Assembly: GCA_016195985.1 (NCBI GenBank)
Contig: JACPYP010000016.1
Location: forward strand, 186,001-250,000
Origin: Acidobacteriota bacterium
GTDB taxonomy: Bacteria; Acidobacteriota; Holophagae; Holophagales; Holophagaceae
DNA: 64,000 nt
Reading direction: 5' to 3'
Part shown: positions 29,094 to 32,968 of the stretch, one piece after another
Position numbering within the stretch: position 1 is the first letter of the stretch
Layout: each line of letters starts with the position of its first letter
Made by a program: the position numbers and the translations under genes
The notes under the pieces: model-generated
What the model was told of the DNA's origin: nothing
What the model saw: the letters and a program-made list of their open reading frames with translations, nothing else
The model's database searches: none

Positions 29094-30416
29094 TTATGGC
29101 TGGTTGATGTCCTTGTCTTTGTGTCGGAAAAGACGGGCACCCTGGCCGGTGTAATCCGCCACTTGATGGCCGTTCCCGCGCAGCAGGTAGCGATGGCTGA
29201 GCAGGCCTTCCAGGCCCACGGGCCCCCGCGCATGGATGCGGCCGGTGCTGATGCCCACCTCGGCGCCGAAGCCGTAGCGGAAGCCGTCGGCGAAGCGGGT
29301 GGAGGCGTTGTGGAAAACGCCCGCCGCATCGACCTCTGCCAGGAAGCGCGCGGCGGCGGCGCTGTCTCCGGTGACGATGGCCTCCGTGTGGCCGCTCCCG
29401 TGGGCACGTATGTGGGCCAGGGCCTCGTCCAGATCCGCCACGATTTTCACGGCGAGGATGGGCGCGCCGTACTCGGCGTCCCAATCATCTTCCGTGGCGG
29501 GGAGAAGGTCGGGGATGAGTGCGAGGCAGCGGGCGCAGCCCCGCAGCTCCACGCCTCGCGGGCGCAGGTCTTCCACCAGCCTGGGCAGAAGCCGCGCCGC
29601 GGCCCGCTGGTGGATGAGCACCGTCTCCACGGCGTTGCAGGCGGCGGGGTACTGCAGCTTTCCATCCCGCACCAGGGCCAGCGCCATGGCGGGGTCGGCG
29701 GCCTCGTCGAGCACCATGTGGCACACGCCGTCGGCGTGGCCCAACACAGGAATGCGGGTGGAGGACTGGATGGCCCGCACCAGCGCCTTGGACCCGCGGG
29801 GGATGACGAGATCCACCAGGTCGGGCCGTTGCAGCAGGGCGTGGACGGCTTCGCGGCCAGGCAGGCTCTGGACGGCTCCTTCGGGCAGCTGCGCTTCCCG
29901 CAGCGCCGCTTGAACCAGTTCCACGAGCAGGGCGTTGGAACGGCAGGCCTCGCTGCCACCCTTGAGCAGCGCCGCATTGCCGCTCTTGAGGGCCAGGGAG
30001 GCGATCTGGACGAGGGCGTCGGGGCGGGCCTCGAAGATCACGCATAGCACGCCGAGGGGGCAGGTGACGCGGGTGAGTTCCAGGCCCTCGTCCAGCTCGC
30101 GGCGCAGCTGCACCTGGCGGAGAGGGTCGGGCAGGGCGGCCACGGCGCGGACGCCTTCCGCCATGGCCGCCACCTTGGCAGGATCCAGGCGGAGCCTTTG
30201 CAGGGTGGCGGCATCGAGGGCCCCGGCCTCCCGGAGGTCTTCGGCCCCGGCCTCCCGGAGGTCTTCGGCATTGGCCTCCAGCAGGGCGGCGGCCCGTCCC
30301 TCCAACAGGCCGGCAAGATGCTGCAGCGCGGCGTCGCGCTGCCCGGCGGGGGTGATGGCGAGGCGGCGGGAGGCCTGCCGGGCGGCTTCGGCCATGGCCT
30401 GGGCGGTGGCGGTCAT
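29094..30416 (-). CDS. proA: Gamma-glutamyl phosphate reductase
   Basis: Reduces gamma-glutamyl phosphate to glutamate-5-semialdehyde in proline synthesis. 440 aa from the ATG at 30416, which overlaps the proB stop as ATGA. Family segments: [20 protein letters not shown], the [16 protein letters not shown] loop, [16 protein letters not shown], catalytic cysteine in [17 protein letters not shown] and [15 protein letters not shown]. Near residue 60 the peptide AEDLREAG occurs twice in a row, from a perfect 24-bp tandem duplication, adding eight residues to the N-terminal helix; the frame stays open. Confidence 0.95.
30219..30266. repeat. Perfect 24-bp tandem duplication inside proA
   Basis: Units 30219-30242 and 30243-30266 are identical and in frame, encoding AEDLREAG twice. 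Looks like recent replication slippage. Confidence 0.95.
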
Positions 30417-31300
30417 GAGGAAACCCCCTTCATGGCGCATTGGAAGAAGGTGCCCACGGGTTCGCCGGCGAGGATCTGATCGAGGATGCGGGGCGCCAGT
30501 CCCGAGGCCAGGGCCACGGGAACGCCCGCCTGCGCGGCCTGCCGGGCAGCCGCCACCTTGCTGGCCATGCCGCCCCGTCCGCCCGCGGAGGTGCCCGCGA
30601 GGTTCACGGAGAGATCGGCTTCGAAGGGAACATGGACGAGGGGAGTGGCGCCGGGATTCAAGCCCGGATCCTCCGTGTGGAGGGCGCTCACATCCGAAAG
30701 CAGGATGAGCAGGTCGGCCTCCAGATGCGCGGCCACCAGGGCGGAGAGGTGGTCGTTGTCGCTGAAGACGGGACGCGGGCCGGGGCCGGACTCGGGGTTG
30801 GGTCCGGGGCCTGGTCGCTCCAGTTCCAGGGTGGAGACGGTGTCGTTCTCGTTGAGCACCGGAACGGCGCCCAGTTCCAGCAGGGTTTCCAGCGTGTGCC
30901 GCAGGTTGAGGTGGCGCAGGGAGTCGGTGAAATCATCCTCGGTGAGCAGCACCTGGGCGGCCCGAAGGCCCAGCCGGGCGAAGCCCTCCTGGTAGAGGGC
31001 CATGAGCAATCCCTGGCCCACCGCCGCACAGGCCTGTTTCTGGACCAGGGTCCGAGGCTGGAGGCCCAATTGGCGGGCCCCGAGCCCCACGGCCCCGGAG
31101 GAGACGAGCAGCGGCTCTCCACCTCGCCGCCGCAGGGCGGCCACGCTTTCCATGAGGCTGTACAGGCGGCTGAGGGCAGGGCGGCCCTCGGCATCCACCA
31201 CCACCAGGGTGCCCAGCTTCACGACGATGCGTCGCGCTGTGGTGCAGGGGGCGCGGGGATTCACAACCGTGGGTTCGTGGGCGGATTGAGGCGAGGCCAT
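30413..31300 (-). CDS. proB: Glutamate 5-kinase without PUA domain
   Basis: Phosphorylates glutamate, the first committed step of proline synthesis. 295 aa, with the kinase segments [68 protein letters not shown] and the [20 protein letters not shown] nucleotide region. It ends soon after, so it lacks the C-terminal PUA domain of the E. coli enzyme. Insert residues rich in Pro/Gly ([15 protein letters not shown]) interrupt the substrate region. The ATG at 31300 has GGAAG 5 nt upstream; an in-frame TTG at 31312 is less likely. A terminator-like hairpin ends only about 19 nt before this start codon. Confidence 0.93.
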
Positions 31301-31310
31301 GGGCGCTTCC

Positions 31311-31345
31311 AAAGAAAAACCCCCGATCCGTGTGCGGGTCGGGGG
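31311..31345 (-). promoter_or_regulatory. Intrinsic terminator just upstream of proB (putative attenuator)
   Basis: On the minus strand CCCCCGA-C-CCG-CACA-CGG-A-TCGGGGG is followed by TTTTTCTTT (31319-31311), then the proB Shine-Dalgarno (31310-31306). With about 19 nt between stem and start codon there is no room for a promoter downstream, so proB mRNA must read through it. It may alternatively end the upstream decarboxylase mRNA, but then proB would have no visible promoter. Confidence 0.7.
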
Positions 31346-31373
31346 GCGGGAAACAGGGTCGGCTGCTGCTAGA

Positions 31374-31442
31374 TCAGACGCTCCCTCCGGCCACCGGCTG
31401 GCTGTGGCTAGGGCGCGGGTTGGGGGTCAGGAGGCGGGACAT
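31374..31442 (-). CDS. Putative proline-rich leader peptide of proBA
   Basis: A 22-codon frame, MSRLLTPNPRPSHSQPVAGG plus two residues, with four proline codons (ccc, ccg, cct, ccg), three of them within five codons. Its stop is 28 nt upstream of the terminator stem, the geometry of amino-acid leader-peptide attenuators. The Shine-Dalgarno is weak; an in-frame ATG at 31505 (with GGAG about 10 nt upstream) would give a 43-residue version. The link to proline control is inferred from codon content and the downstream gene. Confidence 0.4.
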   Translation of the reverse strand: MSRLLTPNPRPSHSQPVAGGSV

Positions 31443-31555
31443 GATGCTGCCAGTGTGGAAGGTGCCGGTCCCGGACACAAGTGGTTGTTCAGACAGGATG
31501 GCCATCTTCTGCCCGCTCCGGGCGTTGCCAGCCATGCGGCGTGGCTGCGAGCGGT

Positions 31556-32968
31556 TCAGGCCCGGGCTGCTGCTTGCAGAGCATCCCACAGGGCCTGCAC
31601 GTGAGGCCGCTCGGTGGTCTCAGCGCCGATGCTCACTCGAAGCATCTGCTTGCCCTTGAGCAGGGAGGGCGTGAGGTAGGCCTTGCCGCCCTCATTGAGG
31701 CGGCGCGCCAGGTCCAGGTTGTGGGCGGCCAGGGCCGCTTCGTCCAGGCCGGGTTTCAGGTGCCGGATGCACACGGTCTGCAGGGGCACGGGGGCCAGCC
31801 GCTCCCAATCCGCGGTCCCGTCCACCTGGGCCCTGAACCACTGCGCGTTCTCCAGGTCGCGGCGCAGGCGCCCCTGCAGGCCCTCCACGCCCACGTCCAT
31901 GAGGAAGAACCACAGCTTCAGCGCCCGGAAGCGCCGTCCCAGCTGGATGTGCCAGTCCCGGAAGTTGCTCACTTGGCCGTCCTGCGCGGTGCGCAGGTAG
32001 CTTGGGTTGGTGCTCATGACGCGGATGAGGTGCTGGGGGTCTCGCACGTAGTAGGCGCTGAAATCGAAGCCCACGCCCATCCACTTGTGGGGGTTGAAGA
32101 TCACGCTATCGGCTCTCTCGACGCCCTCCCACATCCAGCGGCATTCGGGCAGAACCATGGCCGTGCCCGCCAGGGCGGCGTCCACGTGGAGCCAGAGGCC
32201 ATGCTGTTCGGCGAGGTCGGCCATGGCCGCCACGGGATCGATGGCCGTGGTGCCCGTGGTGCCCACGGCGGCCACCAGGGCGCAGGGGCGCAGGCCGATC
32301 TCCAGATCCTTCTCAAGGGCTGCCTTCAGCAGATCCAGGCGGATGGCGTGGTTCCCATCCGTGGGGATGAGGCGCAGGAAGCTGCGGCCGAAGCCCGCCA
32401 GCAGGGCGGCCTTCTCGATGGAGCTGTGGCCCTGGTCCGAGGCGTAGACCACCAGGGGCGCCTCGCCGCTCTGCAATCCCTCGGTGTCCTGGGCGTAGGC
32501 CGAGGCCTTTTCCCGGGCGCAGAGCAGGGCCGTGAAAGTGGCGGTGCTCGCGGTGTCGTGGATGACGCCCGTGAAGGCGGGGCTGAGGCCCACCATCTGC
32601 CGCAGCCAGTCCATGACCACCTCTTCCACTTCCGTGGCAGCGGGGCTGGTCTGCCAGCTCATGCCCTGGGCGCCGATGCCCGAGGCCGCGAGGTCGCCGA
32701 GGATCGAGGCGTAGGTGGTGTTGCTGGGGAAGTAGGCGAAGAAGGAGGGATGGTTCCAGTGCGTGATGCCGGGCATCACGTCCCGCTCCAAGGCCGCCAG
32801 AGCCTGGGCCATGCGGCCCCCCTGCTGGGGCGGATGGTCCGGGAAGGCCGAGCGGATCTCGCCGGGCAGCGCCCGGCTCATGACGGGCAGGCGTTCCATC
32901 CCTTCGCGGTAGTCCGCGATCCAATCGACGAGCTGATAACCGAGGCGGCGGAATTCTTGGGCGTCCAT
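31556..32968 (-). CDS. Group II PLP-dependent amino acid decarboxylase (AADC-like)
   Basis: 470-aa pyridoxal-phosphate decarboxylase of the aromatic-L-amino-acid/DOPA decarboxylase group. Typical N-terminus (FRRLGYQLVDWIADYREGME), SPAATEVEEVVMDWLRQMVG, the YASDQGHSSIEKAALLAG segment, LWLHVDAALAGTAMVLPECR and the PLP lysine in VIFNPHKWMGVGFDFSAYYV, followed by WHIQLGRRFRALKLWFFLMD. Length is typical. Substrate (Trp, Tyr, Phe or DOPA) is not assignable. It is divergent from a LysR gene 92 nt away, a common regulator-target arrangement. CTGGAGAGCCC precedes the ATG. Confidence 0.9.
   Translation of the reverse strand: MDAQEFRRLGYQLVDWIADYREGMERLPVMSRALPGEIRSAFPDHPPQQGGRMAQALAALERDVMPGITHWNHPSFFAYFPSNTTYASILGDLAASGIGAQGMSWQTSPAATEVEEVVMDWLRQMVGLSPAFTGVIHDTASTATFTALLCAREKASAYAQDTEGLQSGEAPLVVYASDQGHSSIEKAALLAGFGRSFLRLIPTDGNHAIRLDLLKAALEKDLEIGLRPCALVAAVGTTGTTAIDPVAAMADLAEQHGLWLHVDAALAGTAMVLPECRWMWEGVERADSVIFNPHKWMGVGFDFSAYYVRDPQHLIRVMSTNPSYLRTAQDGQVSNFRDWHIQLGRRFRALKLWFFLMDVGVEGLQGRLRRDLENAQWFRAQVDGTADWERLAPVPLQTVCIRHLKPGLDEAALAAHNLDLARRLNEGGKAYLTPSLLKGKQMLRVSIGAETTERPHVQALWDALQAAARA

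Follow-up and report, generated by a model that had tools for sequence, protein, structure and literature searches.

The proBA operon of this acidobacterium, a Geothrix-type soil bacterium, appears to be controlled by a ribosome-mediated transcription attenuator, in which a leader peptide senses the supply of charged tRNA-Pro, a reading that we hold with a probability of roughly 0.86. The initial annotation had proposed a proline-responsive attenuator at this position, and comparison with relatives supports the proposal through a small frame and Pro codons that recur from genome to genome, a predicted antiterminator, a sister leader upstream of proC, and further leaders in front of asnB and pheA.

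The locus lies entirely on the minus strand of the 64,000-nucleotide stretch of DNA that was analysed (the window). A putative promoter, consisting of a -35-like box TTGTGT (31475..31480) and a -10-like box CACACT (31452..31457) separated by 17 nt, precedes a leader ORF of 69 nt encoding MSRLLTPNPRPSHSQPVAGGSV (31374..31442), with its ATG at 31442, exactly 9 nt from the -10-like box, and its TGA stop at 31374. Pro codons stand at positions 7, 9, 11 and 16, in line with an earlier count of three prolines in five codons plus a fourth. Region 1, CCGCGCCCTAGC (31407..31418), holds the candidate control codons Pro9-Arg-Pro11-Ser, singled out by codon conservation. Region 2 (31376..31397), in the 3' portion of the leader ORF, is the predicted 5' half of an antiterminator and forms a duplex of -22.1 kcal/mol with region 3 (31339..31361), the predicted 3' half, which is placed by folding and by the switch profile and overlaps the 5' arm of the terminator. 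The terminator hairpin itself (regions 3:4; 31320..31345) has a predicted stability of -19.0 kcal/mol and is followed by the T-run TTTTTCTTT (31311..31319), which ends 10 nt before proB, and by the likely proB ribosome binding site GGAAG (31306..31310). These coordinates agree with the initial description of a 7+3 bp stem that begins 28 nt after the leader stop, ends about 19 nt before the proB ATG at 31300, and directly adjoins the ribosome binding site.

The regulated gene, proB (glutamate 5-kinase, 30413..31300), matches TIGR01027 with 249.7 bits, and the second gene of the operon, proA (glutamate-5-semialdehyde dehydrogenase, 29094..30440), matches NF001221 with 525 bits, both identities having been checked against NCBIfam. 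The true start of proA probably lies a little inside the annotated frame. Upstream of the leader ORF, and on the same strand as proBA, is a gene for a pyridoxal-dependent decarboxylase (31556-32968).

We envisage that the RNA starts at, or a few nucleotides before, the leader ATG, and that the first ribosome would load on a nearly leaderless mRNA. When Pro-tRNA is ample, this ribosome would clear codons 9 and 11, reach the stop codon, and cover region 2; with region 2 covered, regions 3 and 4 would form the terminator, and RNA polymerase would halt before proB. When Pro-tRNA is scarce, the ribosome would be held up over the Pro codons of region 1, leaving region 2 free to pair with region 3, which would block the terminator and allow proBA to be transcribed.

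The locus stands above chance because of its conservation among relatives and not because of single-sequence statistics; the minimum free energy of the whole leader, for instance, is not unusual (z +0.92). Our sample comprised 26 proB loci of the same genus, each with a high-scoring ProB and readable upstream DNA. On sequence grounds the genus is Geothrix, of the family Holophagaceae, and is so called because L132, from Geothrix oryzisoli SG189, carries the G009 sequence. All 26 loci have the leader ORF (22-23 codons, ending in TGA or TAG), the terminator and proB in the same order, with the start and stop of the ORF in the same place and an intrinsic terminator hairpin predicted between the ORF and proB. 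A lack of conservation of the small frame in relatives, which would have refuted the initial proposal, is therefore ruled out. The absence of a T-box was likewise borne out, as the window has no match to an Rfam family at gathering score, and no T-box turned up in a permissive scan of this stretch. A sub-threshold Rfam match to NsiR1 (24.6 bits against a cut-off of 39), which covers a C-rich stretch and the terminator, was rejected.

Within the leader peptide, conservation is concentrated at two prolines. When the 26 proB leaders are mapped on the ProB tree, Pro is found at codon 9 in 25 of them and at codon 11 in all; between the two, codon 10 encodes Arg, Pro, Ile or Asn, and almost every other residue of the peptide is variable. 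Nine of the 10 inferred changes at Pro codons 9 and 11 fall in the third position (P 3.6e-4, for a pair of codons picked after inspection); codons 2-16 taken together have no third-position bias in these leaders. Codon 11 is CCT in 20 of 26 leaders, and CCT makes up 15 of the 176 Pro codons in six genes of the window. The 12-mer CCGCGCCCTAGC, encoding Pro-Arg-Pro-Ser, has only two copies in the 4.26-Mb genome, one in the proB leader and one in the proC leader. The Pro codons had been cited in support of attenuation from the outset, and this holds for their conservation at positions 9 and 11; their number alone is within compositional expectation, with 4 in the leader of this genome against a mean of 5.2 in dinucleotide-shuffled ORFs, and 4.65 against 4.21 by dinucleotide shuffle for proB and proC leaders. 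For the leader, pN/pS comes to about 0.97 whichever frame is taken, which is uninformative and leaves coding unproven by substitution pattern; constraint at the RNA level therefore clearly acts too.

A clear antiterminator had escaped inspection by eye, a conclusion overturned by the folding that the initial annotation had recommended, in which the leader ORF is predicted to pair by its 3' end with the terminator's 5' arm, so that antiterminator and terminator exclude each other. The folded RNA ran as far as the terminator loop, and a ribosome was placed over the Pro codons. In nearly all genomes, region 2, the final third of the leader ORF, then pairs into the terminator 5' arm (region 3), for example as GGGUGGGA:UCCCACCC in L007 and as GGGUCG:CGACCC in L023; in one clade, the stall-state minimum free energy structure still permits the terminator. 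In proB leaders, the mean probability that the arm is captured from upstream is 0.72 when codons 11-12 occupy the A site and drops to 0.25 once the ribosome is at the stop codon, against 0.45 to 0.40 in shuffled controls under the same stepping of the ribosome. Folding by ribosome position gives a fall from 0.89 to 0.05 for proC leaders, and asnB leaders go from 0.87 to 0.12 and then back up to about 0.3. The antiterminator is thus predicted to exclude the terminator in a manner that depends on ribosome position. The energy of the region 2:3 pairing goes modestly beyond that of shuffles (mean z -1.0; -0.65 against synonymous recoding), and swapping regions 2 and 3 between species has a weak effect (-25.0 kcal/mol for own pairs versus -23.9 for swapped pairs). 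The excess of pairing energy in these models is genuine, if modest, and depends on the clade, and the register of the pairing shifts from one clade to the next.

The 26 genomes have just two short conserved boxes in front of the leader ORF. In the -35-like box, a weak match to consensus, the TT of its TTG is invariant and the G nearly so, and the -10-like box reads CA(C/G)A(C/A)T and keeps its 9-nt distance to the ATG in every genome. A mechanical scan of the stretch for consensus promoters and terminators had no match here because of the weak -10 and a mismatch in the stem. Assuming an ordinary sigma-70 promoter, we infer that the RNA starts 0-3 nt before the leader ATG; translation of the leader would then begin on a nearly leaderless RNA, with no room for a Shine-Dalgarno sequence. 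With a conserved promoter-like pair in this position, the alternative start between 31345 and 31300 that had been named as a possible refutation is not indicated. The proC leaders have a TATGCT- or TATAGT-like box 7 nt ahead of their ATG.

A covariance model of the leader, searched in the same genomes, found further elements. In the genome under study, proC (its product matching TIGR00112) is preceded by MILVLTVHPRPSTLSAGGSYAR (HPRPST) and a terminator, and leaders of the same architecture, with Asn codons in MTLSLQRFNRNTNRNPRADRAWAGEGLS and Phe codons in MLTSRFYFAFSFRTSGARVGGV, precede asnB and pheA, respectively. These codons for the amino acid of each leader's own pathway are, in our view, the strongest evidence for the proposed codon reading. 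The PRPS motif is common to the proB and proC leaders, and with this sister element proline synthesis would be a two-operon regulon in this genome. Among relatives, a PRPST leader occurs at about 19 of 30 proC loci; at the rest the same search found none, and several of the proC genes lie directly behind another gene. An Asn leader of the NRNTNRN type, with a terminator, precedes asnB at 28 or more of 30 loci in Holophagaceae (leader regions L093 and L169-L198; G000:C18:222321-222448 in the genome under study), and these leaders carry 3.8 Asn codons each versus 0.9 in shuffles, a 4-fold excess. Three genomes without proB (L108-L110) retain the Pro leader before proC. Two genomes from outside the genus, G066 among them, have the gene order proC-proB with the leader before proC, the first gene, and in G065 the leader stands before proB.

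Several other arrangements were observed in the course of these searches. Five nearly complete genomes of the Geothrix genus (G008, G011, G017, G020 and G032) have no ProB above the cut-off and keep proC, which in the first four is preceded by a Pro leader. An Asn-rich leader, MLKTSLTRQNNRNNANPSTDRAWGGEALV, precedes a gene whose product distantly resembles asparagine synthetase A, with a score under the NCBIfam cut-off (L101; G053:C9:53040-53163). Leaders with Phe, Ile and His codons, each with a terminator, precede pheA in the genome under study (L094), an ilvA-like gene in G030 (L105) and hisG in G066 (L223), respectively; the hisG of the genome under study sits inside an operon. No leader was found at leuA in four genomes. 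Upstream of proB in G069 (L064), a Pro-rich ORF, MLNLRPIPRPPFRPTGA, follows a TACAAT box and no clear terminator was found, which may reflect a degenerate or a different arrangement.

Other explanations must be weighed against this evidence. The hairpin could be the terminator of the decarboxylase gene, which does lie upstream on the same strand, or a constitutive partial terminator, with the ORF a chance frame in C-rich DNA of the kind whose expected Pro count the leader does not exceed. A promoter, however, would have no space between the terminator and proB, and a chance frame is at odds with an ORF, start, stop, -10-like distance and terminator that are kept in 26 genomes despite differing upstream DNA, as it is with the sister element before proC and the cognate-codon leaders before asnB and pheA. 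We regard this explanation as very improbable. It is also conceivable, if improbable, that the ribosome stalls on the nascent peptide or through slow Pro-Pro bond formation (an EF-P-type signal), with the same RNA switch downstream. One source indicates that Pro-rich leaders responsive to translation factors are known (PMC5021804), and the PRPS motif of both proB and proC leaders, together with the three consecutive prolines (NPPP) of five leaders, could be read in this way. Yet in most leaders the prolines alternate instead of following one another, nearly every other position of the peptide varies, and the sister leaders of the same genomes match the amino acid of their own pathway (Asn, Phe), as charging sensors do.

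Direct binding of a small molecule or protein by the leader RNA, in the manner of a riboswitch and with an incidental ORF, seems to us the least probable of these accounts and highly improbable in itself. The strong conservation of the nucleotides of CCGCGCCCTAGCCAC would suit such an RNA; against it stand the lack of an Rfam family match, the absence of conserved aptamer-like folding apart from stems 1:2, 2:3 and 3:4, and the sliding register of the 2:3 stem. A leader-peptide attenuator that reads the charging of tRNA-Pro is the explanation we prefer.

Over 297 genomes of the phylum, the covariance model (R1) found no full element outside Holophagaceae; the matches there, mostly to the terminator end of the model only and with low scores, were not taken as the element. 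Of another 17 proB loci from acidobacteria, 13 allowed a scan for Pro-rich leaders, with none at 12 of the 13. In another acidobacterial family (L213), proB is preceded by an unrelated Pro leader (MHLALDLRRSPAPAPARRPRLPDRLGSCIA; SPAPAPARRPRLP) with a predicted antiterminator GCUGGGG:CCCCAGC that is exclusive with the terminator CCCCCAGCGAG/CUCGCUGGGGG, consistent with an independent origin of this Pro leader. It is fairly likely that Holophagaceae place proBA, proC and asparagine synthesis under nearly leaderless attenuators of one design, that these form classes undescribed in the literature searched, and that a separate proBA leader arose in another acidobacterial family.

Proline genes of Bacillus are under T-box control, which shares with the proposed attenuator its signal (the charging of tRNA-Pro), its pathway and its use of transcription antitermination. 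A T-box, however, reads the tRNA directly and without translation, and the proB leader has no T-box match. The textbook examples of leader-peptide attenuation are the trp, his, leu, thr, ilv and phe (pheA) operons (PMC1183508). As in these systems, a short ORF with cognate codons and a terminator stand before the first gene, and the predicted antiterminator joins the 3' portion of the leader ORF to the terminator's 5' arm; unlike them, the present element concerns proline, acts on proBA and proC, belongs to an acidobacterium, and is apparently nearly leaderless, without a Shine-Dalgarno sequence. An RNA that starts at the leader ATG is known from the trpL attenuator of Sinorhizobium meliloti (PMC7298713), where the start was measured and not, as here, inferred; that system responds to tryptophan and belongs to an alphaproteobacterium.

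Leaders with Pro codons that sense charged tRNA-Pro are known from Salmonella, namely mgtL (mgtA) and mgtP (mgtCBR) (PMC3641672). They resemble the proB leader in that a short ORF reports the charging of tRNA-Pro and controls transcription into an operon, as predicted here. Their sequences are unrelated to the proB leader, mgtP has a Shine-Dalgarno-like site, and their targets are Mg2+ transport or virulence genes; the genes downstream of the present leaders are proB, proA and proC, and no mgt gene is among them. Our literature search, which reached few subscription papers, found no leader-peptide attenuator for proline or asparagine that acts on the genes making that amino acid, and a survey from 2010 noted that hardly any function had been assigned to acidobacterial attenuators (PMC2965389). 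The specificity for proline and asparagine, and the phylum, thus appear new in the literature searched, and the mechanism is already known. Whereas the known Pro leaders mgtL and mgtP control magnesium genes, the proline class described here would act on proline synthesis itself, closing a feedback loop and coordinating two unlinked operons, and an asparagine class would be added to it; the leaders also offer ready-made constructs for testing in environmental bacteria that are harmless. Within a single family, one leader design would thereby serve different pathways by means of different cognate codons.
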